Shown one piece after another: positions 10,667-24,904 of a stretch of DNA of 32,949 bases. Within the stretch, counting starts at the first letter, position 1, and each line of letters opens with the position of its first letter. Both the position numbers and the translations under genes were made by a program. Location: positions 1 through 32,949 of the forward strand of contig JAQGGZ010000003.1 in the NCBI GenBank assembly GCA_028289125.1, given 5' to 3'. This DNA is from Candidatus Saccharimonadota bacterium (GTDB lineage Bacteria; Patescibacteriota; Saccharimonadia; Saccharimonadales; UBA4665). The notes under the pieces are model-generated. The model did not search any database. It was not told where the DNA came from and saw only the letters and a program-made list of their open reading frames with translations.

Positions 10667-10793
10667 CACCAAGGGTGCACAGGGCCGGGTAGGGACAAGT
10701 GAGGTGACGCAACTGCGCCGCTACAACCACTACGTCCCGCCCGCCCTGCAATCCCCCGAGCGCATGACGCGTTTCATGCCCTCAGGAAATTGC
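10660..10793 (+). repeat. 3' structure of the Cys-rich gene: panhandle arm, long hairpin, CCCC hairpin
   Basis: 10660-10677 spans the stop and is complementary to the leader at 10083-10100. A long imperfect hairpin follows (10680-10748: CAGGGC/GCCCTG, GGGAC/GTCCC, AGTG/CACT). Next comes the conserved CCCC hairpin (10748-10793: GCAAT..CCCCGAG..GCATGA / TCATGC..CTCAGG..ATTGC). Its 3' end supplies the TTGCAA -35 of the next promoter. Confidence 0.65.
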
Positions 10794-10967
10794 AATATCA
10801 TCAGGTTTATGCTAAAATAGCGTTACTTCGTCGAGGTATCGTTACCTCCGAGGTACCTTAACAGTCCCTCTGTCTTCCGTACATTGCGCTTGTCGAAAAG
10901 ATTACTATCCGTAGCGATCTTTTCGACAAGCGCAAGCCCCCAACCGAAGGAGCAATGTGACGCCATC
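10790..10967 (+). promoter_or_regulatory. Type I cassette promoter and structured leader (45-aa gene)
   Basis: TTGCAA (10790-10795), 17 bp, TAAAAT (10813-10818). The 5'-terminal hairpin is ACTTCG/CGAGGT (10825-10854), followed by TACCTTAACA. CAGTCCCTCTGTC (10862-10874) is complementary, with one bulge, to 11398-11409 after the second gene. A perfect 19-bp inverted repeat lies at 10884-10902 and 10917-10935. AAGGAG is at 10947-10952, followed by an ATG-TGA start-stop at 10955. Confidence 0.72.
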
Positions 10968-11105
10968 ATGAGCGCAGCCCTGTGGCTTAGATACTGGATG
11001 GACGAGAAGTACTCCCACCCGGCACCCGTCGAACCCGACGCCAAGCAGGTCGCCGCCGAGGCTGCCACCGCTGACTTCGAGCTCGATGAACACCTGAGCG
11101 AGTAA
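10968..11105 (+). CDS. Small acidic protein, 45 aa, unrecognised
   Basis: 45 residues (MSAALWLRYWMDEKYSHPAP start), with an aromatic N-terminus and an acidic, Ala-rich, helix-prone C-terminus ending ELDEHLSE. The start is not certain: AAGGAG at 10947-10952 is 15 bases from this ATG and only two from an ATG-TGA pair. A longer frame to 10884 would have to be translated through the leader hairpin and is unlikely. It is first of two genes in one transcript. Confidence 0.5.
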   Translation: MSAALWLRYWMDEKYSHPAPVEPDAKQVAAEAATADFELDEHLSE

Positions 11106-11150
11106 CACCCTCTTCCCGCAACACAGTCAGCGAAGGAGCACTACCGTACC

Positions 11151-11375
11151 ATGGCAACGAACCACCCGCGTACCCAGCCATTCCCCGGCCAACCCAAGCA
11201 GAAGCAGCCACCGCTGGGGCCGCCGCCTTCGCACAACCCGTTCATGGATCCGTTCAGCCCCTCACGGACGACCCCGTCGCCCTCACCGTTCCACCCGTCT
11301 CCGGAATGGCAATCCGAGTTCCAACCCGGGCAGCCGCCTGCGGACACCAGCTCCACCTCGGTGCGCGTCGCGTAA
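11151..11375 (+). CDS. Small proline-rich, probably disordered protein, 74 aa
   Basis: 74 residues with about one third Pro and many Ser, Gln and Thr (repeated PSPSPFHP, PPLGPPPSHNP-like stretches); no hydrophobic core, so probably disordered. CGAAGGAGCA upstream repeats the same ten bases as the Shine-Dalgarno of the 45-aa gene, 12 bases from the ATG. It shares the transcript with that gene, and the panhandle arm after its stop pairs with the leader before the first gene, so the two form one cassette. Confidence 0.55.
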   Translation: MATNHPRTQPFPGQPKQKQPPLGPPPSHNPFMDPFSPSRTTPSPSPFHPSPEWQSEFQPGQPPADTSSTSVRVA

Positions 11376-11397
11376 CTGAACTCCGGGTCGGCACGTC

Positions 11398-11530
11398 GAC
11401 AGAGGACTGCGTAAGGCGGTACGGTAGCGAAGGCGCTGAGACTCGTGTCTGACACGAATTTCCTCTCCCTAGCTACCGTACCGCCGCATTCCCCCGAGCG
11501 CATAACTTATTTGTGCATTCAGGGGATTGC
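11398..11530 (+). repeat. 3' structure of the 45-aa/Pro-rich cassette
   Basis: GACAGAGGACTG (11398-11409) is the panhandle arm to 10862-10874. A perfect 14-bp inverted repeat (11415-11428 with 11472-11485) encloses a second palindrome, TCGTGTCTGACACGA (11443-11457). The conserved CCCC hairpin follows (11486-11530: GCA-TCCCC-GCGCA / TGTGC-GGGGA-TGC). Confidence 0.65.
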
Positions 11531-11543
11531 CTTATTACCTATT

Positions 11544-12140
11544 ATGAACACCAGTAAATACCCATTGATTTCCGACCAGATCAGCCGACCAGCCCTAGAG
11601 GTCGTCCTGACTGAACTTGAAGCCGTCCTGGCCCGGGGTACCGCCGGCGCTATCTGTGAGTTCGGCTGTTATATCGGCACCACCAGCCTGTTCATCCGCC
11701 GTTTAATCGGCGACCAAAAGGAATTCCACGCCTACGATTCGTTCGAAGGCTTACCGGCCAAAGATGCCCACGACCAATCAGCCGCCGGTATCGATTTCAG
11801 GGCCGGCGAACTGGCCGTCAGCAAGAAACAGTTTCTGGAGCAGTTCCGCAAGGCCAACCTCAGATCGCCCATCACCCACAAGGCTTGGTTCGACGATTTG
11901 ACCGCCCAGGACGTGCCTGATAAAATCGCCTTCGCGTTCCTGGACGGGGATTTTTATGGCTCGATCCTGACCAGCCTGCGACTGGTCTGGCCGCGCCTCA
12001 GTGACGGCGGCAGTATCGCCGTCGACGATTATCGCCGCGAGACACTACCCGGCGTCGAACGGGCCATCACTGATTTCATGCAGGGTAAGGCCTACCGCTT
12101 GCGTTACGCCCATAATATCGCCATCATTACAAAAGCATGA
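11544..12140 (+). CDS. TylF/macrocin O-methyltransferase-like SAM methyltransferase
   Basis: 198 residues. The SAM-binding region is ICEFGCYIGTTSLFIRRL (motif I), followed by FHAYDSFEGLPAKD, and IAFAFLDGDFYGSILTSLRLVWPRLSDGGSIAVDDY. The FLDGDFYGS and VDDY segments match the metal-binding acidic motifs of TylF/MycF-type sugar O-methyltransferases. The substrate is probably a sugar or glycan but is not shown. The ATG at 11544 has no Shine-Dalgarno; TTATTA ends six bases upstream. It overlaps rlmH by ATGA. Confidence 0.85.
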   Translation: MNTSKYPLISDQISRPALEVVLTELEAVLARGTAGAICEFGCYIGTTSLFIRRLIGDQKEFHAYDSFEGLPAKDAHDQSAAGIDFRAGELAVSKKQFLEQFRKANLRSPITHKAWFDDLTAQDVPDKIAFAFLDGDFYGSILTSLRLVWPRLSDGGSIAVDDYRRETLPGVERAITDFMQGKAYRLRYAHNIAIITKA

Positions 12141-12565
12141 AGATACATATCATCACCATCGGCAAGCCGAAACTCGCCTACGCTCAGGCAGGGCTCGAAG
12201 AGTACGTCCGGCGCCTGAAGCACTTTCACCCCCTGCAGGTCACGCATCTCAGCGACCGGCACAATGACGTCGATCACATACTCGGAGCGGTAGGACGATC
12301 GTTCCTGGTCGCCCTGGCGATAGAAGGGAAGCAGCTGAGCAGCCACCAGTTATCCGCTTTCCTTGAAAAACGTCTGCTTGACGGCCGCGATATTTGTTTC
12401 GTCATCGGCGGGCCGGATGGGCTCCCGGCGGAAGTCCTTGAGACCGCTGATCTGCGCTGGAGCTTTTCCGACCTGACCTTACCGCACGATCTCGCCATGG
12501 TCGTCCTGGCAGAATCCCTGTACCGGGCCTGTGCTATCAGTGCTGGGCTGCCGTATCACCACTGA
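12137..12565 (+). CDS. rlmH: 23S rRNA pseudouridine-1915 N3-methyltransferase RlmH
   Basis: 142 residues, close to the family length of about 155. SPOUT trefoil-knot motifs are intact: start KIHIITIGKPK, the SAM-binding FVIGGPDGLP, and the C-terminal LTLPHDLAMVVLAESLYRA...YHH. RlmH methylates m3-pseudouridine 1915 in helix 69 of 23S rRNA on assembled ribosomes. The ATGA overlap couples it to the upstream methyltransferase gene. Confidence 0.95.
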   Translation: MKIHIITIGKPKLAYAQAGLEEYVRRLKHFHPLQVTHLSDRHNDVDHILGAVGRSFLVALAIEGKQLSSHQLSAFLEKRLLDGRDICFVIGGPDGLPAEVLETADLRWSFSDLTLPHDLAMVVLAESLYRACAISAGLPYHH

Positions 12566-12588
12566 AAATACGTTGTACATTCCGCCTC

Positions 12589-12869
12589 TTGCAGCCGACC
12601 TATAAGCAGGCATATACTAAGGACTAGCAATATGTGGGCTGGCCAAAAACCTTCCTCCACATAGGCTTATCAAAGCACTTCGGGAGCTACAGTTCGCCAA
12701 ACCATCACGGTCAGGCACTGGCACGTGTCCCTCCATGTCATAAACGAATCGTGTGTTATAACGCTTACGGCAGCCACCAGAACGGGCGCCCACTGAGCCA
12801 GCACCCTTTGTTCTATCCTCACCCGTCGTTCTCATCTATATAACTCTTTTATATGACAGGAGGATTGTC
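12589..12869 (+). promoter_or_regulatory. Promoter and 250-nt leader of the 92-aa gene
   Basis: TTGCAG (12589-12594), 18 bp, TATACT (12613-12618). The leader has a hairpin near the 5' end (TATGTGG/CCACATA, 12631-12663). It ends with ATGACA-GGAGGAT-TGTCAT (12853-12871), a 6-bp stem that puts the Shine-Dalgarno in the loop and part of the start codon in the stem. No other gene is seen in this stretch. Confidence 0.55.
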
Positions 12870-13148
12870 ATGGCTGTATCTCAATCTATTAACAAGCAGG
12901 TCAACGTAAACGCACTCTACTTTCGCCAACGGGGCGGAAGCTTCCGCAGCTTCCCGAAGCGTATGGAGTTCGACGGCCAGGAATACACCTTTCTGGAGTC
13001 TGGTCTGCAGATGCTCATCCAGCGCGGACAGGACGTCGTCAAGCTCTTCGACATGACAGACGGCGACAAGCGCTACAAGCTGCGTTTCAACCCATCCGAG
13101 CATGAGTGGACGCTGATCAACATTTCCCAGGCTCAGCGGGCCTTATAA
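12870..13148 (+). CDS. Small hypothetical protein, paralogue of the gene at 32720
   Basis: 92 residues, soluble and basic. Its C-terminal half, KLFDMTDGDKRYKLRFNP.SEHEWTL, aligns with HVFSVTDGINFFELKFN.SEELKW in the partial gene at 32720, and the preceding FPKRMEFDGQEYTF aligns with RPFKMQWHDKDYLI. The two are paralogues of a small beta-rich family that I cannot name. Strong AGGAGG upstream, and a good terminator 13 bases after the stop; single-gene unit. Confidence 0.8.
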   Translation: MAVSQSINKQVNVNALYFRQRGGSFRSFPKRMEFDGQEYTFLESGLQMLIQRGQDVVKLFDMTDGDKRYKLRFNPSEHEWTLINISQAQRAL

Positions 13149-13160
13149 ACCGCCCGAACA

Positions 13161-13200
13161 AAAGGCCCTTCGTGAAGTAACTATTCACGAAGGGCCTTTT
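13161..13200 (+). terminator. Rho-independent terminator
   Basis: AAAGGCCCTTCGTGAA pairs with TTCACGAAGGGCCTTTT, with a 7-nt loop and a T run. It ends the 92-aa gene. Confidence 0.9.
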
Positions 13201-13215
13201 TATACACTTGGGAAT

Positions 13216-13304
13216 TGATCAATCTGTCGAGCGGGGGGTGCCTGAAATCGGCGACGGGGAGTCGGACAAAGCCATTTCTTCTCCCCGCCGCCGAGTCAGG
13301 TGGC
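13216..13304 (-). repeat. 3' structure of the 119-aa gene: panhandle arm and long hairpin
   Basis: TGATCAATCTGTC at 13216-13228 is a perfect 13-bp inverted copy of 13757-13769 in this gene's leader. A long hairpin lies between the stop and the arm: CCTGA/TCAGG outer, then CGGCGaCGGGGAG (13249-13261) with CTCCCCGcCGCCG (13281-13293). Confidence 0.65.
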
Positions 13305-13358
13305 GTTCAGCCGGACGTCTCGTGGACGATAGGACTGAGCGCCTGCTCGTGGACTTGC

Positions 13359-13718
13359 TCAGCTGGCGGTGGCCAACTGTTCGAAGCGCGGCAAGGGCGG
13401 CACCTTCCGGTAGAGGCCGGAGCAGCACAAGCACGATTCGAGCCAGTCGCTACCGAGGTCGTAGTGACTCACGACCGTGATCATCAGCTGCGCTGCCGAG
13501 TTCTCCAGCGTGACGCTGACGACAGCAGCGTGCCGCAACAGGCGGGCTACGAGGATACGGACCTCGTATGGCTCGTCGTCGTGGACAGGAAGGCTGTTGT
13601 CGTAGATGCGAGCTTCGCACGGGTCCATCTTGATGGACAGGTCTACGGCCTTGAAGATCGTGAACTTGGCGGACGAAGTGACACTGGTCGGACGGGGCTG
13701 ACGCCATGCGAGACGCAC
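13359..13718 (-). CDS. Small hypothetical protein, 119 aa, GTG start
   Basis: 119 residues from a GTG with AGGAG seven bases upstream. The sequence reads as a globular, alternating beta-like protein (AKFTIFKAVDLSIKMDPCEA, YEVRILVARLLRHAAVVSVT) with a CLCC cluster near the C-terminus. A longer plus-strand frame over the same region has no Shine-Dalgarno and was rejected. The family is not recognised. It forms a single-gene unit flanked by a perfect 13-bp inverted repeat. Confidence 0.6.
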   Translation of the reverse strand: MRLAWRQPRPTSVTSSAKFTIFKAVDLSIKMDPCEARIYDNSLPVHDDEPYEVRILVARLLRHAAVVSVTLENSAAQLMITVVSHYDLGSDWLESCLCCSGLYRKVPPLPRFEQLATAS

Positions 13719-13832
13719 GTGACTACTCCTATTAGAAAAGGGCGATGCCGGGGAAGGACAGATTGATCAGGTTGTACTCTGGGAGGATGTACTACCACAT
13801 TCAGTTATAGCACTGTGTGAGATATATCACAA
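13719..13832 (-). promoter_or_regulatory. Promoter and leader of the 119-aa gene
   Basis: On the minus strand: TTGTGA (13832-13827), 17 bp, TATAAC (13809-13804). The leader contains the panhandle arm GACAGATTGATCA (plus strand 13757-13769), a C-rich tract, and AGGAG before the GTG. Confidence 0.65.
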
Positions 13833-13835
13833 CGT

Positions 13836-13869
13836 ACAAAAAGCGCCACACAAGGGTGACGCTTTTTGT
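13836..13869. terminator. Bidirectional terminator
   Basis: ACAAAAAGCGcCAC/GTGaCGCTTTTTGT with a 6-nt loop; A-rich on one side and T-rich on the other. It ends the minus-strand gene at 13899 and shields the promoter of the 119-aa gene. Confidence 0.8.
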
Positions 13870-13898
13870 TGAACCTTTTGAGCCGGATCTTAGCCAGA

Positions 13899-14132
13899 CT
13901 ACCGATTGGTGACGATCACTCGCATGCCCGGTGCGCGGCGCTTGGCCTCGTCAAACCGCATGCCGGTCTGCACCCCGATGGCCTTGAGCCGGGGCGAGCA
14001 TGACATGATCTGATAGCGGTGCAGGTTGCGCTGCGGGGATGGCAGATGGCGGCGCCGGACCGACCGGGGCCGGGTCACGTCGACGGCGAAGGCCCACAAC
14101 AGGTGGTTATCAACATTGTTCATTGTTTCCAT
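13899..14132 (-). CDS. Small basic hypothetical protein, 77 aa
   Basis: 77 residues, Arg-rich in the middle (DVTRPRSVRRRHLPSPQRNLHRY) and ending RRAPGMRVIVTNR. GAGGAG lies seven bases before the ATG. The family is not recognised; the basic stretch would suit nucleic-acid or ribosome contact, which is inference. It has a 200-nt leader and a normal terminator. Confidence 0.6.
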   Translation of the reverse strand: METMNNVDNHLLWAFAVDVTRPRSVRRRHLPSPQRNLHRYQIMSCSPRLKAIGVQTGMRFDEAKRRAPGMRVIVTNR

Positions 14133-14336
14133 AGTAAAAACTCCTCATTTGAATGTGGTTTAAGCAGGAACGGATTTTTGAGGGAGTCACCTGATAGGTA
14201 CCAAAACCGTTCGACTTCGGGGCCATGACAGGGGACTAAAAGCTATAAGAAGCGCGCAGGGCCCGAAGGATGCTTGCCGTTAAAAAGCTTGCGAGTCAAA
14301 GGCGAAGCCAGTACTCACATCGCTAATGCTATTATA
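14133..14336 (-). promoter_or_regulatory. Long structured leader of the 77-aa gene
   Basis: TATAAT on the minus strand (14336-14331) with no clear -35. The roughly 190-nt leader includes a hairpin with GAACGG/CCGTTC ends (plus strand 14168-14173 and 14207-14212, inner TTTTG/CAAAA and TACC/GGTG). No complementarity to the 3' side was found. Confidence 0.5.
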
Positions 14337-14363
14337 CCAGTTTCAGGGGAGTTGTGCTAGTTC

Positions 14364-15014: not shown

Positions 15015-15091
15015 GGAAGATTCCTATGTTATATCGTCAGAATAGGTTATTTATCTGGCGATTGCAACCATGACAGGCGGCCTATGATTTT

Positions 15092-15766: not shown

Positions 15767-15841
15767 ACTGACCCCGTTATTACTGAATAACTGTAGGCCA
15801 GTATCGGGATTAACACAAGGAATATGAATCGGGGTGGGAGT

Positions 15842-15931
15842 GGGGGAAAACGGAAATGCTGCAGGACGACAGCGGACTATCACTGGAATGTGATAATCGT
15901 GTCGCCCTGCAGGCATCTCAACGTTCTCCCC
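15842..15931 (-). repeat. Long imperfect 3' hairpin after the 68-aa membrane gene
   Basis: About 90 nt of nested pairing: GGGGGAaAACG/CGTTcTCCCC, ATGCTGCAGG/CCTGCAGGCAT, CGACA/TGTCG, and an apical ATCAC-TGGAAT-GTGAT. The tip is nearly identical to that of the hairpin at 31304-31390. Confidence 0.7.
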
Positions 15932-16032
15932 TCAGATGGGAATCAGGCTGCCCGAGAGGGGTCTCGGTGTGTTCGGTCGATATGCTGACGGCCGACGCTG
16001 ACAGAAGTGGTGGATGTCGGTGTGCTGACTGG

Positions 16033-16239
16033 TCAGGTCGTCTTGCGACGGCGCAGGATGAGGCGGATGATGCCACTGGCGACGAGACCGATGATCACGA
16101 AGACCACGAGTTCGATGCCCAGCATCACCAGCGCCCAGCCCCAGCGACTGGCGTGGAACAGGTCCACCCAGTAGAACAGCACGTAGAGCAGATTGTCGAA
16201 GAACACGTACAGCGGATTGCCGTGCGTTGTCAACGTCAT
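16033..16239 (-). CDS. Two-helix membrane microprotein, 68 aa (copy 1)
   Basis: 68 residues starting MTLTTHGNPLYVFFDNLLYV, with two hydrophobic segments (NPLYVFFDNLLYVLFYWVDLF and WALVMLGIELVVFVIIGLVASGII) and a basic end RLILRRRKTT. AAGGAG is seven bases before the ATG. It is paralogous to the neighbour at 16555 (NP-YVFF, LFY-VDL, W-L/M-ILEL, GRTR/RRRK). Function unknown; the NPxYVFF start and paired copies suggest a small family. Confidence 0.75.
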   Translation of the reverse strand: MTLTTHGNPLYVFFDNLLYVLFYWVDLFHASRWGWALVMLGIELVVFVIIGLVASGIIRLILRRRKTT

Positions 16240-16305
16240 GATGGTTCTCCTTGTCGGGGAAGGACGGGACCGAGCTACAATACCATTTTCTTGCTTATAT
16301 TGCAA
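16240..16305 (-). promoter_or_regulatory. Promoter and leader shared in form with the next paralogue (copy 1)
   Basis: On the minus strand: TTGCAA (16305-16300), 17 bp, TATTGT (16282-16277). The mRNA should begin near GTCCCGTC, then a C-rich tract, then CCCCGACAAGGAG before the ATG. Confidence 0.65.
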
Positions 16306-16357
16306 TATTACATTCAATTTATAATACGGCGATGCAAACGAGCAAATAGGTAGGGGT

Positions 16358-16446: not shown

Positions 16447-16554
16447 GTGATGGGTACCGTGCGTTCCAAGGGCGAACCTTGGGCGTACAGGCCGTGTTCT
16501 ACGAGCGGGTCAGGCTGGAGGGATGGGACGGGTGGATCGCGCCAGAGGCGGGTA

Positions 16555-16827
16555 TTACTCGCCCGAGCTGATGCGATTGCGCGTGCGGGTGCGACCCACG
16601 ATCAGGCCGAGGATGCCACCACCGCCCATGACGAGCGAGAGGAGCAGCAACTCCAGGATCAGAAGGATCAGCCCCCACCACGGGTGACCCTCGAAGCGGA
16701 TCAGATCCACCGGGTAGAAGAGCCAGTCGAGCAGCTTGAGAAAGAACACGTAGAACGGGTTGTTCGTATCGGTCGGCGCGGGCGCGTCGGCGAGCACCTG
16801 GAACACGGAACCATCTGTCATCGTCAT
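16555..16827 (-). CDS. Two-helix membrane microprotein, 90 aa (copy 2)
   Basis: 90 residues. A hydrophilic N-terminus (MTMTDGSVFQVLADAPAPTD) precedes NPFYVFFLKLLDWLFYPVDL and WWGLILLILELLLLSLVMGGGG, ending in a basic GRTRTRNRISSGE. It is paralogous to copy 1 but has a longer N-terminus. AAGGAG is seven bases before the ATG. Promoter and leader match those of copy 1, so the whole transcription unit, not just the coding region, appears duplicated. Confidence 0.75.
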   Translation of the reverse strand: MTMTDGSVFQVLADAPAPTDTNNPFYVFFLKLLDWLFYPVDLIRFEGHPWWGLILLILELLLLSLVMGGGGILGLIVGRTRTRNRISSGE

Positions 16828-16896
16828 CGAAAAACTCCTTGTCGGGGGGGTGAGACGGGACCACCCTACCATACCATTTTTTAGTTAGTTATGCAA
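16828..16896 (-). promoter_or_regulatory. Promoter and leader (copy 2)
   Basis: On the minus strand: TTGCAT (16896-16891), 17 bp, TATGGT (16873-16868). The leader begins GTCCCGTC, then a C run, then CCCCGACAAGGAG, matching copy 1. Confidence 0.65.
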
Positions 16897-16963: not shown

Positions 16964-17059
16964 GGTTGGTACAGCAGACAGATCACAGAGGGTATATAGA
17001 ATAAGCCGAGGCTCATCCCGACCGCATACACACTCTGTGACCCGCCTGCCGCACCAACC
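16964..17059 (-). repeat. Long imperfect 3' hairpin with panhandle arm (209-aa gene)
   Basis: GGTTGGT/ACCAACC, GCAG/CTGC and TCACAGAG/CTCTGTGA pair over 96 nt. GCAGACAGATCACAGAG (16974-16990) is also complementary, with one bulge, to the leader segment 17865-17882, so 3' hairpin and 5'-3' pairing are alternatives. Confidence 0.7.
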
Positions 17060-17105: not shown

Positions 17106-17735
17106 CTAACCGCGGACGCGGAACCCGAAGAGGGGGGCACGTCTGCCGAGCAGGTGAGCGAGTTCCGGGGCGACGCCGATGGACATGGCGACGAACGGGG
17201 CGTCACTCTCTTCTCCTCCGACCCAGGGGATGGAGGAGTCGGCACTGCCGAACAGGTGGACGTCGCGCATGTTGTGCTTCCTGGCCAGCTCGAGGACACG
17301 TTCGTTGGTCGGGTGACCATCGGACTGGTGCAGGGCCTCTAGCTCCTTGAGGAACGCCTCCACGTCCGGCTTCGGGTTGAGCTCGGCGTCGAGCGTGTGG
17401 CGGATGCTCGCGAGCAGGTGCTCGATGACGATCTCCATCAGCTCGTGCATCCGCGTCTCGGCGTGCGGGTGGTGGTACGTGACGTCGATCTTGAGCCTGA
17501 TTCGCGTGGTGTCGCTGGTCTTCCCGCGCTTGACGTCATGGCGGCTCATGCCATCACCCGGCAGGAAGTCATCGGCTCCGGCGAGCAGACGCAGGCAGTC
17601 CCGGATGATCACGTCCTGGATGTCCATCAGGATCCAATTGAACATCGTCAGGTCGAAGTCCGGACGGGTGTCCTCGATATCGAGCGACAGCGTTGCACTC
17701 CCGAGAGCGAACTCGAAAGTGATGTCCTTCTGCAT
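17106..17735 (-). CDS. Hypothetical cytoplasmic protein, 209 aa
   Basis: 209 residues, no signal or membrane helix. An acidic N-terminal half (EFALGSATLSLDIEDTRPDFD) is followed by a His-rich helix (TYHHPHAETRMHELMEIVIEHLL) and a C-terminal region with VHLFGSADSSIPWVGGEES and a basic tail. A GGGGGGAGAGG tract precedes the ATG. The family is not recognised. Single-gene unit with a type II leader. Confidence 0.7.
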   Translation of the reverse strand: MQKDITFEFALGSATLSLDIEDTRPDFDLTMFNWILMDIQDVIIRDCLRLLAGADDFLPGDGMSRHDVKRGKTSDTTRIRLKIDVTYHHPHAETRMHELMEIVIEHLLASIRHTLDAELNPKPDVEAFLKELEALHQSDGHPTNERVLELARKHNMRDVHLFGSADSSIPWVGGEESDAPFVAMSIGVAPELAHLLGRRAPLFGFRVRG

Positions 17736-17926
17736 GGCGAATACCTCTCCCCCCTGTCTCGGCGTGGTGCGTCGGAGCGCCGCTAGCGTTAGCTAGTGTG
17801 TATATGGATACACAAGACCAGGAACCGGCTCACGCTGGTGAGCAGGTTTCCGGCCTCGTGTATTCTCTGTGAATCTGTCTGCTAATGTTCTTCGGAGACC
17901 GAAGCCTCAACGAATACTATATTATA
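17736..17926 (-). promoter_or_regulatory. Type II cassette promoter and leader (209-aa gene)
   Basis: A perfect TATAAT -10 on the minus strand (17926-17921) with a weak -35. The 5'-terminal hairpin is TTCG..GAG/CTC..CGAA (plus strand 17890-17915). The panhandle arm is 17865-17882. A long leader hairpin with regular mismatches runs over 17808-17863 (ATACAC/GTGTAT ends, CTCAC/GTGAG core). Confidence 0.65.
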
Positions 17927-17967: not shown

Positions 17968-18115
17968 TTGCGTATTGTTGTCACACCCCAGATAATGAGC
18001 CCTGATTGGGTTTCAATCTGTTCTTTAACAGCGTTAGGTCAGACATATCGTGATTTTAAAAGCCGCGAAATGCCTGACCTAACAAGGGGTGAGGGGGAAA
18101 TGAAAGGCAGTGCTG
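17968..18115 (+). promoter_or_regulatory. Promoter and leader of the OMP decarboxylase-like gene
   Basis: TTGCGT (17968-17973), 17 bp, GATAAT (17991-17996). The leader starts near a small hairpin GATTG/CAATC; TGATTGGGT (18003-18011) is complementary to 18911-18919 after the gene. A 10-bp inverted repeat GTTAGGTCAG/CTGACCTAAC (18033-18083) follows, then purine-rich Shine-Dalgarno sequence. Confidence 0.6.
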
Positions 18116-18847
18116 ATGTCGAACGCATCGAAAACCGTCATCTGGAGCGCGGATGTCGAGGAGGAGACCTTGTTCAAGGTCCTCGCCAGCGACAGCCCAC
18201 TCCAGTATGTCAAGCTGGATCGGTTGTACCTGACCGGTCACGGCCTGGTGGCCATCGCGGCCGTCCAGGAGCTCGGCTTCAAGGTGTTCGCCGACGCGAA
18301 GATCGCCGAGGTCCCGACCAAGGTCGTCGAACTCGCCAAGCTGCACCTGCGGTACCGACCGTGGATGCTCAACGTGATGGCGACCATCTGCTCGACGGGC
18401 CTCATGGCGCCCGAGGACAAGAAGAAGACCGATGGGCTCAAGCGCTTCGCTGACCTGTGCCGCGACGCTGACACGCGTTCGTGCGCCGTCACGGTGCTCA
18501 CCAGCAAGAGCCCGGGACTCGTCGGTCGGGAGTTCAACCGTCGTACACCCGTCGACCAGGTGCTGACGTACTGCGAACTGCTGCTGGCGGCCGGCTTCAC
18601 CGACGTGGTTTGTTCGGCGCAGGAGGCCTCGGCCATCAGGTCCGAGCCGCGTTTCGACGGGCTCGAGCTCAACACGCCGGGCATCCGCCTGCCGGGCAGC
18701 GACGCACGCGATCAGCAGCGCATCACCACCCCGGCGGCAGCCATCGCGGCAGGGGCAACCCGGCTCGTGATCGGCAGCGATCTGACCAACGGTGACTTCA
18801 CGGAGAACTTCCGACGGGTCGCCGCCAACCTCGACAACAAGGAGTAG
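18116..18847 (+). CDS. Divergent orotidine-5'-phosphate decarboxylase-like protein
   Basis: 243 residues with a PyrF-type TIM barrel layout: VIWSADVEEE, KLDRLYLTGHG, KVFADAKIAEVPTKV (DxKxxD region), TVLTSKSP, and the C-terminal TPGIRLPGSDARDQQRI..TPAAAIAAGATRLVIGSDLT. The catalytic Asp-x-Lys is kept but the second Asp is Glu, and the phosphate-binding Arg of VxGR is Ser, so OMP decarboxylase activity is doubtful. A related barrel fold (KGPDC-type) is possible. AAAGG lies eight bases before the chosen ATG; a GTG at 18110 is an alternative. No other pyrimidine gene is nearby. Confidence 0.8.
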   Translation: MSNASKTVIWSADVEEETLFKVLASDSPLQYVKLDRLYLTGHGLVAIAAVQELGFKVFADAKIAEVPTKVVELAKLHLRYRPWMLNVMATICSTGLMAPEDKKKTDGLKRFADLCRDADTRSCAVTVLTSKSPGLVGREFNRRTPVDQVLTYCELLLAAGFTDVVCSAQEASAIRSEPRFDGLELNTPGIRLPGSDARDQQRITTPAAAIAAGATRLVIGSDLTNGDFTENFRRVAANLDNKE

Positions 18848-19018: not shown

Positions 19019-19024
19019 GATATA

Positions 19025-19168
19025 CAATCCGCTAAATGCACAAATACTATTTATGCGCTTGGGGGATTGCCAGGTGGGGAGGGGAATGTAATAGGGTATG
19101 TGATGGCTGCATAAGCAGGCCAAGACAGGGACACTACGCCACCTCCACCCCACCTGGAGTCCTCTATG
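19025..19168 (-). repeat. 3' structure of the 215-aa gene: panhandle arm, long hairpin, CCCC hairpin
   Basis: TCCTCTATG (19160-19168) is an inverted copy of 19943-19951 in the leader. A long hairpin CCAGGTGGGG/CCCCACCTGG spans 19070-19157. The conserved CCCC hairpin (19025-19069) reads CAATCCCCCAAGCGCA on the transcript strand, with GGATTG closing it. Confidence 0.65.
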
Positions 19169-19190
19169 CACCGACGTCTCACGACGATGG

Positions 19191-19838
19191 TTACTGCTCG
19201 GGATGCTCCCTGATCTGGATCTCACCGTCCGGCGTCTCTTCGATGTCGAAGAAGGCCTCATGGTCGAGCGCTGTCAGCGGGAACTTCTCGTTCCACATCG
19301 GCGAATCGCCCGTGGAGAGCTCGACGAAAGGAACGGTCAGCAGTTCACCCGACTGGGCGCGTACGAACCACAGATGTTCCTTCTCGACGATGCCGACTTC
19401 ATCGACCTCGCATTCGCGCATGATCAGACCGGCGCCTATGAACAGCTTGTAGTAGCTGTGGCTATGGGTCAGGATCTGTGTGCTCACGTAGACGTACGTA
19501 CCGTCTGCCGCGCGGCCAAGCCAGACCGGGATACGGTCCTTGGGCAGCTCGACGATGTTGAGCAGGGCCAACGGCGGTTGGTTCTCCTGGCGGAAGAACA
19601 CCTGCCCGTTGAAGTAGATCACATCGGACTGACAGCGAAGAGTGCCCACCGCGTTGCCGACAGGGCTCTCGAAGGTGATGTCGTGGTAGTACTCCGTACC
19701 GACGAACCCCGTAATGGTCACCGCGACGTACTGCTCACCGTCGGGGCTGTACACGAGGTCACCGTGCTCGGTGGGCGCGCCGTCCGACCGATAGATGAAC
19801 TCCGCTCCATCACGGGCGACGAACTGAGTAGCAGACAT
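19191..19838 (-). CDS. Hypothetical beta-rich protein, 215 aa
   Basis: 215 residues, no signal or membrane helix, acidic. Repeated strand-like segments (EQYVAVTITGFVG, DVIYFNGQVFFRQ, GTYVYVSTQILTH, EHLWFVRAQSGELLTVPF) suggest a beta-sandwich or barrel. GGAAGGAA precedes the ATG. The family is not recognised. Single-gene type I cassette. Confidence 0.7.
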   Translation of the reverse strand: MSATQFVARDGAEFIYRSDGAPTEHGDLVYSPDGEQYVAVTITGFVGTEYYHDITFESPVGNAVGTLRCQSDVIYFNGQVFFRQENQPPLALLNIVELPKDRIPVWLGRAADGTYVYVSTQILTHSHSYYKLFIGAGLIMRECEVDEVGIVEKEHLWFVRAQSGELLTVPFVELSTGDSPMWNEKFPLTALDHEAFFDIEETPDGEIQIREHPEQ

Positions 19839-20026
19839 TGCAGTGGTTCCTTCCAGGGTTGGATATTGCAGGGTGTGAGAATCTGTTGAGAGACGGCCGA
19901 CACAACACCATTTTGTTATGTGGACTGCTTCTCAACAGATATCATAGAGGATAATTTAAGGTACCTCGGAACCGTCAGGCTCGACGAAGATTTGTATATT
20001 CTACAATCTCATATAATGATTGTCAA
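19839..20026 (-). promoter_or_regulatory. Type I cassette promoter and leader (215-aa gene)
   Basis: On the minus strand: TTGACA (20026-20021), 17 bp, TAGAAT (20003-19998). The 5' hairpin CTTCG/CGAGG (plus strand 19964-19988) is followed by TACCTTAA. The panhandle arm is 19943-19951; the leader hairpin has 11-bp ends ATCTGTTGAGA/TCTCAACAGAT (19881-19940). Confidence 0.72.
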
Positions 20027-20028
20027 TA

Positions 20029-20493: not shown

Positions 20494-20597
20494 GGGAGAT
20501 AGTTCCTTTACTTAATGTCCGCAGTATTGCAAAGCTTGTGAAGCATTTCCAGGGTAGGCGACTACCCTAAACCGCAGCACCGGTATACCATACACTC

Positions 20598-21305
20598 ATG
20601 CATATGAACCAATTGCACCCTGTGCGGTGGCAGATTCTGGATGATCTCCGACACCGAGAGTCGGCGCGGTACAGTGACTTACAAAAACCGAGCGGCCTTG
20701 ACAGCGATGTCTTCAAGTTCCATATCAAGAATCTGCTGGCAAACGGTTGGATCCAAAAGAATGACACGGGGGAATACGCCCTGACCGCTGCCGGCAAGGA
20801 ATTCGCCAACAATCTCGACGATGATAGGCGCACGACCAAGAAGCAGCCCAAACTATCCATCATCATCCATGCCAAGCGTACGAATAGCGGCCGGGAGGAG
20901 TTCCTGTTCCAGAAACGCCAGCGCAACCCGTATTGGGGCTACTGGGGCCATATAGGCGGAGCGATTCCGTGGGGGCAGGAACCGGAAGACGTCGCCGCCA
21001 GCGAACTGCTCAAACAGACCGGCCTGAAAGCCACGCTTTCCCTCAAGGCGTTTTACCGCCAGCGCGACTACGCCAAAGGCAGCGGCGACCTGCTTGAAGA
21101 CAAATTGTTCGTAATCATCGATGCCACTGACGTGCAGGGTGTAATACAAAATGATTGGCCCGGTGGACATTCGGCGTGGATGACGTTGTCGGAAGTCCAG
21201 GCAGCCGAGCCCTATTTTCTGTCCATACCGCATGTCATCAAGATGATACAGGACGGCGAGACGTACCGCTCAAACCGGATCGATTACGCATCAGACCAAT
21301 ACTGA
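20598..21305 (+). CDS. Winged-helix plus Nudix-fold fusion protein
   Basis: 235 residues. An N-terminal winged-helix domain (about 5-75: RWQILDDLRHRESARYSDLQ, FKFHIKNLLANGWIQ, YALTAAGKEFANNL) is joined to a Nudix-fold domain (about 85-225). The Nudix box region, GGAIPWGQEPEDVAASELLKQTGL, keeps GX5E but lacks the REUXEE core (SELLKQ), so hydrolysis is unlikely and a ligand-sensing role as in NrtR-type regulators is more probable. TACCAT ends six bases before the ATG, suggesting a leaderless mRNA. Confidence 0.85.
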   Translation: MHMNQLHPVRWQILDDLRHRESARYSDLQKPSGLDSDVFKFHIKNLLANGWIQKNDTGEYALTAAGKEFANNLDDDRRTTKKQPKLSIIIHAKRTNSGREEFLFQKRQRNPYWGYWGHIGGAIPWGQEPEDVAASELLKQTGLKATLSLKAFYRQRDYAKGSGDLLEDKLFVIIDATDVQGVIQNDWPGGHSAWMTLSEVQAAEPYFLSIPHVIKMIQDGETYRSNRIDYASDQY

Positions 21306-21328
21306 TATTCTCCATTTTCACTGTCCGT

Positions 21329-21362
21329 GACGGTCCCGCCCGTCAGGCTCAATTCCTTGAGC
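21329..21362 (+). terminator. Two small hairpins after the Nudix-like gene
   Basis: TGACGG/CCGTCA (21329-21346) and GCTCAA-TTCC-TTGAGC (21347-21362) lie back to back. There is no T run, so termination is uncertain. Confidence 0.4.
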
Positions 21363-21374
21363 GCAAGGGGTAGG

Positions 21375-21519
21375 GACAGAGTAAAGACGAGGGTAGGGGG
21401 TAGGGGGAGGAGGGACACATTACTGTGCATTGATTCCTCGTCGCCCGGGCGGCAAGATAAAGCATAAGAGGACCAAAATCGGTCGCCATATGCACCAGGA
21501 TATACCTGTCCTTGCCGCC
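21375..21519 (-). repeat. 3' structure of the 100-aa membrane gene: 15-bp panhandle arm and hairpin
   Basis: GACAGAGTAAAGACG (21375-21389) is a perfect 15-bp inverted copy of 21913-21927 in the leader. Between stop and arm is a hairpin with 9-bp ends GGCGGCAAG/CTTGCCGCC (21448-21519) and an inner GACC/GGTC. Confidence 0.72.
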
Positions 21520-21534
21520 GCCTCCGGTGGTTAA

Positions 21535-21837
21535 TCATGCGCGGACTGTATGCCGAAACTTGTAGATTCGGTAAGCCCGAGCTGCCATGACGGGAACCGC
21601 GATTGGCCAGAACACCGCCGCGATAGACGATCCGATGAGCAGGATCACCGTCATGAAGATGGCGACGACGATCTGCAGTGCCAAGGCACCAAAGCGCCGT
21701 TCGTGCCACGTCGTCGCGATGTCACGCAGTTCTGACTTGAGGTCAAAACGGGTGTAGCTGACGTACAGGTTGAGCGCGATGAGCGTGAAGAACGCACACC
21801 AGACAACGGCGTTGTACCACGGGTTGGTCCAGAACAT
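21535..21837 (-). CDS. Small membrane protein, 100 aa
   Basis: 100 residues from MFWTNPWYNAVVWCAFFTLI. Two or three hydrophobic segments are seen (NAVVWCAFFTLIALNLYV, ALALQIVVAIFMTVILLIG, and SIAAVFWPIAVPVMA), with a charged loop DLKSELRDIATTWHERR between. A GTG start at 21882 would place the start inside the leader hairpin and is rejected, but the Shine-Dalgarno for 21837 is weak (GGAAC). The family is not recognised. Confidence 0.65.
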   Translation of the reverse strand: MFWTNPWYNAVVWCAFFTLIALNLYVSYTRFDLKSELRDIATTWHERRFGALALQIVVAIFMTVILLIGSSIAAVFWPIAVPVMAARAYRIYKFRHTVRA

Positions 21838-21993
21838 GGTTGTTCCAATCTCGAAGGGGGTTGAATCGAACTTGCTGGTCACAAATGTATGACTACTAAG
21901 CCCGATTCAACGCGTCTTTACTCTGTCAAGGTGCTTCGGAGCATTCGCTCAACGAAGTATGAATATTTTATCATAACCGCTGTTATTTGTCAA
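21838..21993 (-). promoter_or_regulatory. Type II cassette promoter and leader (100-aa membrane gene)
   Basis: On the minus strand: TTGACA (21993-21988), 17 bp, TAAAAT (21970-21965). The 5' hairpin CTTCG-tt-GAGC/GCTC-CGAAG (plus strand 21933-21957) is followed by CACCTTGACA. The panhandle arm is 21913-21927. The leader hairpin TTGAATCG/CGATTCAA (21861-21910) has regularly spaced internal loops. Confidence 0.75.
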
Positions 21994-22040
21994 TCGTGTA
22001 CTAGAGAGGGTTATAACGGTGTAGACCGCTTAAGCATTAA

Positions 22041-22075
22041 TTTACTTATAATTTATTTATGTTATGATTTGCTTA
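22041..22075 (+). promoter_or_regulatory. Promoter of the 450-aa membrane protein gene
   Basis: TTTACT (22041-22046), 16 bp, TATGAT (22063-22068), then seven bases to the ATG at 22076. The ATG at 22064 lies inside the -10, so it cannot be the start if this promoter is used. Confidence 0.65.
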
Positions 22076-23428
22076 ATGAACCCCTCCGACCCACAGATAT
22101 CGGCCATCAAAGTATTTAAACATTTCGAACAAGCCATCGCCAAGATAAACATCTTTCCTTTAAGCAAAGATAATCTCAACATCCAGCAGGATGCCTACAA
22201 AAGACTGGCGACCAATGAAACCGACGAGGCATTTGAAACGTTCGCCGGTCTCGAACAGTCAAAGAAAGAACGTGATACCGACCAGCGGTTCGCGATAGAG
22301 TTCGGCAATGACGGCTTCATATTAGCCATCGAAGGAGTAGGGGACTTGTACGTCGCCTACGATGATATCGACACGACGGAAGCCAAGATTGCGCGCCAGA
22401 TCGTAATCGCTCTGACCATGCTCGCGAACGGGCAATTATGTAACCTGACAACGCTGCGTCGTGGCAAGGTCTGCGCCTCCGAACTGGTTTACAAAGAGAA
22501 GGCGGATGCCAAGCCGATAACCATCGGCGTCGACGGCAAATACCCACGCTTCATCCGATCGGACAGTCCGGACGACTACGAGGTGCACGTCTTGCGCAAT
22601 CAGTTCGCCCTCCAACCTGTACGCATGCCGGACCACTTCTTCATGCGCGCCTTGCGCGCCGACGGCAGCCCCCTGGTCATTCCTCGTGAATTCGAAAGCA
22701 ACGCCTTGACGCCTCTCACCAAGGCCCACCATGCCACCGTTATCAACGAAATCGGTAATAAGCTGCTCGGCGCCGAGGACGACAAGGATCTGTCGAGAAA
22801 AGTGTACAGCTCGTGGGTGTTCTGGCTGTTCTTCATCACGGTGGCAGCCGCTTGTTTCGGATACCTCCCAGATAACCTGGTGGACGGCGCTGCGCCGGTA
22901 ATCGGTATCGGTTCAGCTTTTGTGGCCGCGTATATTACCGGTCGGTATTTTGCCTATCTCGAAAAGGTACGCTTGGTCCGTCCGGATCATCCGCTTATTA
23001 AAGTCGACCAGCTACTGTCGTTCCAGAATGTGCTTCCAGTTTTACTGGCCCTCTGCCTGGGCGTGATACTTTTCAGTCTGAGTTTTCCGATTTTTGTGAC
23101 GAAGTCGGGTCATCAACTCGTTAGTTATTGGCAGTTGCCTCAGGTCATTTCGCCATTCGTATGGCTACCGGTGAGTTGTTTAGCAATGGCCTTGATTCTA
23201 AGTCTGATTCCGAAGATAGTGACGAGGATAACCGCGGCCGGGCTCGCCATTGCGGGCGTCGTAGGGGTGCTGATCGTAAACTTCGGTTTTACTTATGCCG
23301 GCGATGCGGTGAAAGTTCCGGAGCCGCAGACGACGATTGCGATTGCTTCGTACCTGATTGGGATTGTCTTGGCCGTGACGTTGATAGTCACGTACGTACG
23401 GGCCAAAAAGCTTACGACCTCGATTTAA
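22076..23428 (+). CDS. Polytopic membrane protein with soluble N-terminal domain, 450 aa
   Basis: 450 residues. The first 240 or so are soluble and polar, with a fold-like core (FAIEFGNDGFILAIEGVGDLYVAYDDID) and no recognised motif. About seven membrane helices follow, in the last 210 residues (WVFWLFFITVAAACFGYL, PVIGIGSAFVAAYITGRYF, VLPVLLALCLGVILFSLSF, and four more). The arrangement suggests a membrane sensor or transporter-like protein, but I do not recognise it. It is divergent from the 100-aa membrane gene. Confidence 0.75.
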   Translation: MNPSDPQISAIKVFKHFEQAIAKINIFPLSKDNLNIQQDAYKRLATNETDEAFETFAGLEQSKKERDTDQRFAIEFGNDGFILAIEGVGDLYVAYDDIDTTEAKIARQIVIALTMLANGQLCNLTTLRRGKVCASELVYKEKADAKPITIGVDGKYPRFIRSDSPDDYEVHVLRNQFALQPVRMPDHFFMRALRADGSPLVIPREFESNALTPLTKAHHATVINEIGNKLLGAEDDKDLSRKVYSSWVFWLFFITVAAACFGYLPDNLVDGAAPVIGIGSAFVAAYITGRYFAYLEKVRLVRPDHPLIKVDQLLSFQNVLPVLLALCLGVILFSLSFPIFVTKSGHQLVSYWQLPQVISPFVWLPVSCLAMALILSLIPKIVTRITAAGLAIAGVVGVLIVNFGFTYAGDAVKVPEPQTTIAIASYLIGIVLAVTLIVTYVRAKKLTTSI

Positions 23429-23498
23429 GCCACCTACAGATTTGCTTTTTCGCTGTTTCCAGCTCATCAGCGTGAGGCATACACTCACGGAAAGCGAG

Positions 23499-23583
23499 TA
23501 GGGAGAAATGCATGACGGACGACCGGAAAGGGTTTGCAGCGGGCTGCAACGTCTTTGGTGCTTGGACCTTTCCGGGGTCGTCC
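23499..23583 (-). repeat. 3' structure of the alpha-CTD-like gene: arm complementary to its RBS and start
   Basis: TAGGGAGAAATGCATGAC (23499-23516) is an inverted copy, with one bulge, of 24003-24021, which holds the Shine-Dalgarno and ATG of this gene. A 16-bp hairpin GGACGACCGGAAAGG/CCTTTCCGGgGTCGTCC (23517-23583) with an inner TGCAGC/GCTGCA lies between stop and arm. Confidence 0.75.
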
Positions 23584-23593
23584 ATCGTTAGCT

Positions 23594-24007
23594 CTAGGCC
23601 AACTCCTCACCACGCAACGCGTAGCCGGCCGCACCCAACTTTGCCCGGACTTCATCCAGCGACTTCGTACCGAAGTACATGAGGTCGAGGAGGTCGTCCG
23701 CACTACGGGTCGCCAGCGCACCGACAGTATGCGCACCAGCGCGCTTGGCCGCGTTGCGGGCGCGTGAGCTGAGCTTCAGCTCATCGATGTCCGCGTCCGG
23801 TGGCAGGGACGGCGTCCGCACGTGCTTCTGCGGCTCAGCAGACGGAGTCGGTTCGGCCGCGGAGACGAGTAGCTCGGACAGGTGTTCGCGGGACGCAGTG
23901 ACGCCATTCACGAACCCGGTGTGGTAGGCCGCATCGTGGACCTTGTAGTACAGGTCCTCGACGGTTCTCAGAAGCTCCTGCAGCAGAGCCGGCTGTTCCG
24001 TAGTCAT
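23594..24007 (-). CDS. Free-standing RNA polymerase alpha-CTD-like protein
   Basis: 137 residues. A helical N-terminal part (QELLRTVEDLYYKVHDAAYH) and a Pro/Ser linker lead to a C-terminal domain of about 60 residues: IDELKLSSRARNAAKRAGAHTVGALATRSADDLLDLMYFGTKSLDEVRAKLGAAGYALR, split as written into the usual two helix-hairpin-helix halves. This closely follows the RpoA C-terminal domain (ELxLSxRAxNxLKRAGIxTVxxLxxxxxxDLLxxxNFGxKSLxEV), which binds UP elements and activators. Without the alpha N-terminal domain it could compete with, or tether, promoter DNA or regulators. GGGAG precedes the ATG. Confidence 0.85.
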   Translation of the reverse strand: MTTEQPALLQELLRTVEDLYYKVHDAAYHTGFVNGVTASREHLSELLVSAAEPTPSAEPQKHVRTPSLPPDADIDELKLSSRARNAAKRAGAHTVGALATRSADDLLDLMYFGTKSLDEVRAKLGAAGYALRGEELA

Positions 24008-24122
24008 GCATGTTCTCCCTAAATTGTGAGCGCGTACTTATGTTTCCGCACTCGGTGCAACGATTCGGACATATCTCCCGAAAAGTCAAGAATATAGTGT
24101 CAGTTTATACCACTCTTGTCAA
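24008..24122 (-). promoter_or_regulatory. Type III cassette promoter and leader (alpha-CTD-like gene)
   Basis: On the minus strand: TTGACA (24122-24117), 17 bp, CACTAT. The mRNA would begin ACTTTTCGGGAG..CCGAA (hairpin TTCGG/CCGAA), then GTTGCACC, then GAGTGCG-GAAACATAAGTA-CGCGCTC (plus strand 24028-24053). GGGAG and the ATG are within the panhandle arm. Confidence 0.7.
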
Positions 24123-24145
24123 TATTGTTATGCTACGTTTACAGG

Positions 24146-24240
24146 GGTGAATATGACAAGCAGACATGGGGTTAGGAAGAAAGCATCACGGGATACGTGA
24201 ACATCCAGGTTTGAACCCATGCCGGCTTGCCGTATTCACC
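24146..24240 (-). repeat. Long 3' hairpin with panhandle arm (104-aa gene)
   Basis: GGTGAATA/TATTCACC, CAAGC/GCTTG and CATGGGGTT/AACCCATG pair over 95 nt. TGACAAGCAGACATGG (24154-24169) is also an inverted copy (one mismatch) of the leader segment 24651-24666, so the two pairings exclude each other. Confidence 0.7.
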
Positions 24241-24254
24241 TGCGGAAGTGGATG

Positions 24255-24569
24255 TCACGCCGGCGTGAGGAGCGCGTCCACGAGGTCGGGGTAGAGATCA
24301 TCGCTGAACTCGAGCGTTGCGTACGCACTGCCTGAACGGCTCGTGGGGTCGGGGTGGTCCGGGTCGGCGGAAGAGTCCGGGTTGGCTTCGATGAAGCGCT
24401 GCGTCGCCTGGTCCCAGACGGTACTGAGCTCGGGGATTACGGCTTGGGCGGCCGCGAAGGTGGCTCGGTTGCTGGACACGTGTTCGAGCTCCCAACCTCC
24501 CGGCTTCCCCGTGTAGAGATTGAAGTACAAGCCCGAACGGCCTCGGACGACGCTAACGGACAGTTTCAT
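24255..24569 (-). CDS. Small hypothetical protein, 104 aa
   Basis: 104 residues, acidic, starting MKLSVSVVRGRSGLYFNLYT. Strand-like N-terminus, a central helix (FAAAQAVIPELSTVWDQATQRF), and an Asp/Pro/Ser-rich stretch (NPDSSADPDHPDPTSRSGS) before the end. GAGAGGAAA precedes the ATG. The family is not recognised. Single-gene type II cassette. Confidence 0.65.
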   Translation of the reverse strand: MKLSVSVVRGRSGLYFNLYTGKPGGWELEHVSSNRATFAAAQAVIPELSTVWDQATQRFIEANPDSSADPDHPDPTSRSGSAYATLEFSDDLYPDLVDALLTPA

Positions 24570-24732
24570 GATGTTTCCTCTCGGGCGGGAAGGGTTTCCT
24601 CTGAAAAGCTGAGGTATCCAATCACGGCGTGATCAGGTAGCTCAGCTTTTCCATGTCGGCTTGTCAAAGGGCTTCGGAGAAATTAACCTCGACGAAGTGG
24701 TGTAATTTTAACATAATAGGCTGTTCTGTCAA
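24570..24732 (-). promoter_or_regulatory. Type II cassette promoter and leader (104-aa gene)
   Basis: On the minus strand: TTGACA (24732-24727), 16 bp, TAAAAT (24710-24705). The 5' hairpin ACTTCG-tc-GAG/CTC-CGAAG (plus strand 24671-24698) is followed by CCCTTTGACA. The panhandle arm is 24651-24666; the leader hairpin has 10-bp ends AAAAGCTGAG/CTCAGCTTTT (24604-24650) and an apical ATCAC/GTGAT. Confidence 0.75.
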
Positions 24733-24759
24733 TGTAACCAGAGACTCTACTATGAAGCA

Positions 24760-24904
24760 CAGTTCCCCAAAAGCACGAAAGCTTCGTGCGCTTGGGGAAC
24801 TGCCAGGGGGTACGATGAGATGAAAATGATGCGAGAGCAAATTGCACTCAAGCTTCAGATTCACGTCACCGTTCCCCCTGGACTTACGCCCTCTGTTGAC
24901 TCCT
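24760..24904 (-). repeat. 3' structure of the 163-aa gene: panhandle arm, long hairpin, CCCC hairpin
   Basis: CTCTGTTGACTCCT (24891-24904) reaches into the stop and matches the inverted leader copy 25502-25517 with one bulge. The long hairpin CCAGGGGG/CCCCCTGG spans 24803-24881. The CCCC hairpin (24760-24802) is the best-paired copy: CAGTTCCCC/GGGGAACTG with GCACGAA/TTCGTGC. Confidence 0.72.

Follow-up and report, generated by a model that had tools for sequence, protein, structure and literature searches.

The mRNA of hok, from a type I toxin-antitoxin system, is a stable and structured message in which the 5' and 3' ends pair over a long distance. In the icaR mRNA of Staphylococcus aureus, the 3' untranslated region (UTR) covers the Shine-Dalgarno sequence (SD) located in the 5' UTR, which leads to a cut by RNase III. 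To our knowledge, the role of natural bacterial hammerhead ribozymes has never been settled. Saccharibacteria are small-genome bacteria of the candidate phyla radiation and their RNA biology is little known. In prophages, hammerheads flank single genes or short blocks of genes of varying identity, and a role in the trimming of mRNAs has been proposed (Perreault et al. 2011, PMC3088659). The present analysis concerns an entire contig of 32,949 bases (C9, hereafter the window) from an 874-kb genome, 89% complete, whose relatives are Candidatus Saccharibacteria. Several short gene cassettes of this window, called type I units after their leader, end in a conserved hairpin with a CCCC motif (H4), which, as read from sequence comparison, is one of two alternative 3' modules, the other being a type III hammerhead, within a larger mRNA architecture where the two ends of the message pair.

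As with the prophage hammerheads, predicted self-cleaving RNAs here set off single genes or short blocks of variable identity. The units differ from the prophage ones in having their own promoter, a single 3' ribozyme and paired ends, in lying among housekeeping genes, and in that the CCCC hairpin can take the place of the ribozyme. The type I units share with the hok foldback a long-range 5'-3' pairing within the mRNA; unlike hok, they carry diverse cargo instead of a short membrane toxin, they end in a hammerhead or in H4, and their helix leaves the SD uncovered. As in icaR, the two UTRs of one mRNA pair with each other, but the type I pairing lies upstream of the SD and it is a type II unit (open reading frame, ORF, 23594) that comes nearer to icaR. 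Some features also recall viroid-like agents and Obelisks (PMC11922315), namely an RNA of about 1 kb that has a single ORF and structured ends and, in some cases, hammerheads. Unlike these agents, the units are DNA-encoded and chromosomal with bacterial promoters, their ORFs are no more structured than synonymous shuffles, and the ligase RtcB is absent.

The CCCC hairpin and the type I leader

The initial annotation had reported four CCCC hairpins, and all were present with ends within one base. In the following lists, c1 to c4 designate the type I units with H4 and c5 to c7 the type I units of the window without H4. R1 is a covariance model built from the four H4 copies of the window and R2 a model of the type I leader hairpin; the E-values of such models are rough.

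10748-10793 (+), H4 copy A, end of c1; 61 bits with R1, itself built from copy A among others
11486-11530 (+), H4 copy B, end of c2; motif, fold and R1
19024-19070 (-), H4 copy C, end of c3; motif, fold and R1
24759-24803 (-), H4 copy D, end of c4; motif, fold and R1
10680-10747 (+), long hairpin (H3) of c1, abutting H4; fold
11415-11485 (+), long hairpin of c2, abutting H4; fold
19071-19157 (-), long hairpin of c3, abutting H4; fold
24804-24881 (-), long hairpin of c4, abutting H4; its tip CUUGAGUGCAAUUUGCUCUCG is common to relatives

The transcript-strand motif GCANTYCCCCRAGCGCA is matched exactly by 4 of 4 copies, and each copy folds better than its shuffles (z from -4.4 to -7.7; 0 of 200 shuffles as good). 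All four exact occurrences of CCCCRAGCGCA in the 874-kb genome are within the window, and a search of the whole genome with R1 returned the same four sites only. Among about 150 relatives, R1 revealed more copies in G001, G039, G042 and G048. Extra copies were recovered through the tip of the long hairpin, a hairpin whose sequence is free apart from this tip, common to many relatives. H4 is nearly palindromic, so that some copies match both strands; the strand was assigned from the long hairpin located immediately upstream. A search with the tip beyond the Saccharibacteria matched 81 genome stretches. All the matches having a long hairpin in context came from Saccharibacteria or unclassified Patescibacteria, the remaining ones were rejected as apparent chance, and none of the viral matches carried H4.

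Sixteen copies (four from the window) were aligned arm to arm, with trimmed arms and excluding a few asymmetric copies (L043, L045 and L047). The alignment shows one symmetric stem of 19 levels, with standard pairs in 88.9% of 288 cells, whereas slid registers give pairing of only 31-45%. Double-sided changes amount to 54, against 17.1 in shuffles (0 of 500 shuffles reach 54), although these shuffle controls, like the others of this study, take no account of shared ancestry. The compensated changes reported earlier in the upper stem are thus upheld. Position 9 is a C·A mismatch in 11 of the 16 copies and U-A or C-G in the remaining five, position 11 is A-U in every copy, and position 12 varies between G·U, A-U and G-C. 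When position 9 is set aside, there are 21 G·U cells and 8 C·A cells, an excess that points to the transcript strand, as expected for RNA. The copies lie 3' of an ORF in sense orientation. From these comparisons, H4 is a real conserved RNA structure ending small, strongly promoted gene cassettes.

H4 resembles an intrinsic terminator by its G+C-rich stem-loop, but the U tract directly after the stem is lacking. The 8 nucleotides (nt) that follow H4 contain on average 2.5 U (14 copies), L045 alone having 6; no proper U tract was seen behind 4 of 4 window copies and a terminator scan of the region flagged no H4 copy, in agreement with the earlier argument from the missing T run. H4 is a single unbranched hairpin in which neither the hammerhead core (CUGANGA and GAAA) nor the three stems were found. 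A scan of H4 and of the type I leader against Rfam 15 gave no family at or above its gathering score.

The type I leader is a hairpin of the form CUUCG-UN-GAG...CUC-CGAAG, whose stem covaries, with compensated changes captured by R2. Over this genome, R2 detected seven confident leaders, all inside the window:

10048-10083 (+), leader hairpin of c1; promoter 10013-10041
10825-10862 (+), leader hairpin of c2; promoter 10790-10818, overlapping the end of H4 copy A
19955-19990 (-), leader hairpin of c3; promoter 20026-19998
25520-25567 (-), leader hairpin of c4; promoter 25602-25574
24663-24698 (-), leader of c5; ORF 24255-24569; no H4
21925-21958 (-), leader of c6; ORF 21535-21882; no H4
17881-17916 (-), leader of c7; ORF 17106-17735; no H4

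A sigma-70-like promoter is predicted upstream of each of the four H4-unit ORFs. Type I units account for six promoter-like sites of the region, among them the five strongest by -35/-10 count, save one tie. The four H4 copies all stand behind a type I leader, and none of the type II and III units of the window ends in H4. The claim that H4 ends only type I cassettes holds in the window and for most copies of the relatives, which stand behind a type I leader or a clear derivative: a reduced leader in L049 and L106, or a related leader keeping GUAC-N-UUNACA in L044 and L105. It fails at least at L063, where the leader preceding H4 is of a non-type I kind. The H4 at 13345-13387 of L043 seems to be a stranded remnant, and the leader of the L045 unit could not be assigned to a type. 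The converse, that a type I leader implies an H4 end, is contradicted by c5, c6 and c7 (4 of 7 leaders lead to H4) and by the relatives, whose type I units often end in a hammerhead. The link proposed at the outset is therefore a strong tendency of a conserved and covarying hairpin, not a rule. Type I leaders are present in 30 of 295 relatives, and in 3 of 380 genomes drawn from the phylum (the window genome among them), all from one order.

Paired message ends and hammerhead ribozymes

The first description of these hairpins had overlooked the hammerheads and the pairing between the two ends of the message; H4 is real, but it makes up only the end of a 3' UTR, behind a 3' pairing segment and the long hairpin. 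The segment directly behind the leader (LR5) is complementary to a segment behind the stop codon (LR3), and the resulting helix (LR) spans the ORF. The complete order is promoter, 5' hairpin, LR5, variable hairpin, SD and ORF, LR3, then either long hairpin and H4 or a hammerhead. The helices of the window are as follows:

10083-10097 with 10663-10677 (+), LR5 and LR3 of c1; -20.5 kcal/mol, 0 of 500 shuffles; LR3 contains the stop codon
10862-10874 with 11398-11409 (+), LR5 and LR3 of c2; weak alone, 20 of 500 shuffles
19943-19952 with 19160-19168 (-), LR5 and LR3 of c3; U-A in place of the pair seen in other units
25503-25518 with 24889-24903 (-), LR5 and LR3 of c4; -28.2 kcal/mol, 0 of 500 shuffles
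24651-24667 with 24154-24169 (-), LR5 and LR3 of c5
21913-21928 with 21375-21389 (-), LR5 and LR3 of c6; 15 base pairs
17865-17885 with 16973-16991 (-), LR5 and LR3 of c7

In c1, CACUCUUGAUGCUAG pairs with CUAGCACCAAGGGUG; in c3, AUCCUCUAUG with CAUAGAGGA; and in c4, CUCUCUGUUUGACUCC with GGAGUCAACAGAGGG. The LR helix covaries. Over 12 H4 units, with windows picked by hand, the matched arms give -239 kcal/mol against -160 (standard deviation 12) for mismatched ones, and over 11 hammerhead units -328 against -245 (standard deviation 17), with 0 of 20,000 permutations as good in both cases. A blind test was also realized, in which the partner of LR5 was sought over 2.6 kb in 56 units selected by leader alone, with 12 shuffles each. 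In 39 of the 56 units, against about 4 expected, the best partner scores above all 12 shuffles, and where a unit has H4 or a hammerhead, its best partner is mostly located immediately ahead of this module; taken alone, this test is not decisive for c1, c2, c3 and several others. The units c5, c6 and c7 have no H4, yet each has a long LR helix. In type I units the helix is located upstream of the SD, which is left uncovered. In c5 (24154-24169, -) and c7 (16973-16991, -), LR3 has two possible partners, LR5 and the 5' arm of the long hairpin of its unit, which allows two mutually exclusive folds.

Two type III hammerheads, predicted from sequence with their core, stems I to III, a NUH cleavage site and an open stem III, end the type II units of the window:

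31246-31300 (-), end of the unit of ORF 31402; RF00008 38.3 bits, E = 5.4e-5
23442-23493 (-), end of the unit of ORF 23594; RF00008 26.9 bits, E = 0.088, exact core

Both are below the gathering score of Hammerhead_3 (RF00008; 48.5), and an ordinary Rfam scan therefore gives nothing, which explains that default annotation misses them. The core, in relatives CUGAUGAG...GAAA, is a pattern for which 0 occurrences are expected by chance. Of 149 relatives, 54 have it, many of them at several sites, and such hammerheads are common among Saccharibacteria. In the DNA of relatives chosen as carriers of H4 or hammerhead, 72 core sites have a matching stem II, and a set of the relatives' hammerheads was confirmed by Rfam at 26-44 bits. 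L266 and the first unit of L195 carry hammerhead-like cores with CCGACGA replacing CUGANGA; these may be inactive or compensated variants. A match to RAGATH-10 in L200 (29 bits, gathering score 41) was taken as chance. In the literature library that was searched, no paper named hammerhead ribozymes alongside Saccharibacteria, Patescibacteria or the candidate phyla radiation.

Behind type I leaders, in samples that include relatives chosen as above, a type III hammerhead is found about as often as H4. Leaders with a UUGAC tail typically have an LR helix of GACAAGCAGAC with GUCUGCUUGUC and the hammerhead immediately after, whereas those with other tails (UUAAC-like) mostly have a CUCUGU-type LR, the long hairpin and H4. 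The tail predicts the module (16:4 versus 2:9; Fisher p = 0.0017, uncorrected for relatedness; counts from automated calls, some doubtful on each side). LR3 of c5 is GUCUGCUUGUC, directly behind which a hammerhead stands in relatives; none is left in c5, and we read this unit as having lost its hammerhead. A hybrid unit (L094/L289, from G001) combines a type I leader, a CUCUGU-type LR and a long hairpin with the shared tip, but has a hammerhead in the place of H4. Its cargo is homologous to that of c3, which ends in H4 (31% over 212 amino acids, E = 1e-28). This hybrid and its c3-like cargo indicate that one and the same slot takes either H4 or a hammerhead.

In the type II unit of ORF 23594, the SD and start codon UAGGGAGAACAUGCAUGAC (24007-24030, -) are complementary over 17-18 nt to the 3' end GUCAUGCAU-UUCUCCCUA (23500-23520, -), which sits just before the hammerhead. 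Applied to both type II units over long windows, a general 5'-3' energy test gave no significant result, and this complementarity rests on the sequence itself.

Cargo and neighbouring units

The ORFs of the H4 units are:

10187-10666 (+), cargo of c1; 159 amino acids, no assigned function
10968-11375 (+), two cargo ORFs of c2; 45 and 74 amino acids, no assigned function
19191-19838 (-), cargo of c3; 215 amino acids, homologous to the cargo of the hammerhead-ended L289/L094
24903-25394 (-), cargo of c4; 163 amino acids, no assigned function

The cargo proteins are mutually unrelated and their genes are shuffled among units and genomes. They include an RNA polymerase alpha C-terminal domain (in a type II unit), PyrF (in another unit type), SPFH, DUF2807, DUF6197, an iron-sulphur protein, a cold-shock-like protein and many unknowns. 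As a class they are not small toxin-like peptides, and several have enzyme or domain matches. The cassette ORFs 10187-11375, 19191-19838, 24255-25394 and 31402-31908 have a G+C content at third codon positions (GC3) of about 0.8 and encode lysine by AAG, almost never by AAA, while their neighbours have a GC3 of 0.6-0.7. High expression alone was rejected as the cause of this bias, ribosomal protein genes having a GC3 of 0.61-0.71 and still using AAA. The bias is not universal, since the cassettes of AT-rich relatives are AT-rich. A phage origin was also rejected: none of nine window cassette proteins had a PHROG match, and when two window proteins were compared with phages by tblastn, nothing beyond distant PyrF and marginal matches appeared. 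Inclusion of the ORF RNA within a rod-like fold was likewise discarded, synonymous-codon shuffles giving z from -2.1 to +1.9, as for neighbouring genes.

Other units were observed in the window. The RNA polymerase alpha C-terminal domain (Pfam E = 2.5e-15) belongs to a small protein encoded by the type II cassette 23594-24007 (-), and this protein might affect transcription. The orotidine 5'-phosphate decarboxylase unit at 18110-18847 (+) carries a long 5' hairpin of its own and closes with two 3' hairpins, the last being GATCCAAAGACAAT...GTTTTTGGATC; this is a third type of 3' end. Two paralogous small membrane proteins (16033-16242 and 16555-16831, both -) have long 3' hairpins and a common leader, AAATGGTATNGTAG...GGTCCCGTC...CCCCGACAAGGAG; their units are probably those called type III in the initial annotation.

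Function of the 3' module

We propose, with a probability of roughly 0.55, that H4 is the 3'-terminal RNA module of short, separately promoted and structured Saccharibacterial mRNAs, whose 3' end it would define and protect. The transcript would start at or just before the type I hairpin, with its 5' end in or beside the stem. LR5 would pair with LR3 across the whole ORF, closing the message into a loop and clamping its ends. The 3' end would be set either by the long hairpin and H4, or by a type III hammerhead cutting itself off and leaving a 2',3'-cyclic phosphate. Like the hammerhead, H4 would define and protect this end, most likely by blocking 3'-to-5' exonucleases such as PNPase, perhaps once RNase III has cut at the hairpin, or through a bound protein reading the conserved C·A mismatch. 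Messages made in this way would be long-lived and of fixed length. By established RNA biology, the 5' stem, the clamp and the 3' end formed by either module would each slow decay: nucleases that depend on a 5' end are hindered when a stem occupies this end, and PNPase is hindered by a stem at the 3' end or by a 2',3'-cyclic phosphate. Both RNase III and a PNPase-like protein are encoded in the genome; RtcB, a usual circle-closing ligase, is absent from it and from 147 of 149 relatives. Circularisation by RtcB was rejected for this absence, and protection is the better guess.

Several points weigh against this proposal. That H4 is the actual 3' end, and that cleavage occurs and these mRNAs are stable, is inferred from sequence. 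The conserved bases of H4 (the C·A mismatch, CCC and AAG/UUU) are superfluous for a plain exonuclease block. Many type I units have neither H4 nor hammerhead (25 of 56 by automated calls, about 20 after reading), and either module may thus be dispensable. Finally, the LR windows of the 12 H4 units were hand-picked and the association of leader tail with module is uncorrected for shared ancestry.

These same conserved bases, present on both strands around the mismatch, fit a cis-regulatory or protein-binding site, in which a protein or small RNA would read the C·A mismatch and its flanks and the LR helix would set translation or decay as in hok. The complementarity of the 3' end of the ORF 23594 unit to its SD and start codon and the alternative folds of c5 and c7 are in line with such a role. 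We nevertheless regard it as doubtful, since the type I helix leaves the SD uncovered and the cargo proteins are unrelated and not toxin-like as a class.

It is improbable that H4, alone or with the leader brought near by the LR helix, is a new class of small self-cleaving ribozyme which replaces the hammerhead in end-paired, ribozyme-finished mRNAs. H4 does fill the slot of the hammerhead and has fixed internal-loop bases inside a covarying stem. A single hairpin with 1x1 mismatches is however simpler than any known self-cleaving class, H4 has no Rfam match, and a catalytic loop would not be expected to accept the Watson-Crick pairs that some copies have at positions 9 and 13.

An ordinary terminator, intrinsic or factor-dependent, made of H4 and the long hairpin appears very unlikely. 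H4 does stand where transcription units finish, frequently with the next promoter immediately behind it (c1/c2; L042), but most copies have no U tract, no copy was flagged by the terminator scan, and a T-run hairpin behind ORF 12870 indicates that standard-looking terminators exist in this genome; moreover, a terminator stem needs neither conserved sequence nor LR pairing. That H4 acts as DNA, as a folded attC-like recombination site moving the cassettes, can hardly be maintained in spite of the unrelated, shuffled cargo and its peculiar codon usage, because H4 is bound to one strand and to RNA partners with the G·U excess given above, the hammerhead filling the same slot works only as RNA, and the cassettes lie apart in both orientations.

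The protected, end-paired message remains our preferred interpretation. The two 3' modules and the paired ends suggest an undescribed way of making defined and protected mRNAs. Since the same slot takes two unlike modules in transcripts that otherwise match, the purpose of the hammerhead becomes testable by a module swap. In the Saccharibacteria, a whole family of chromosomal mRNAs would be built round hammerheads, with a 5' hairpin, an end-to-end helix and a 3' slot for either a hammerhead or an undescribed hairpin.

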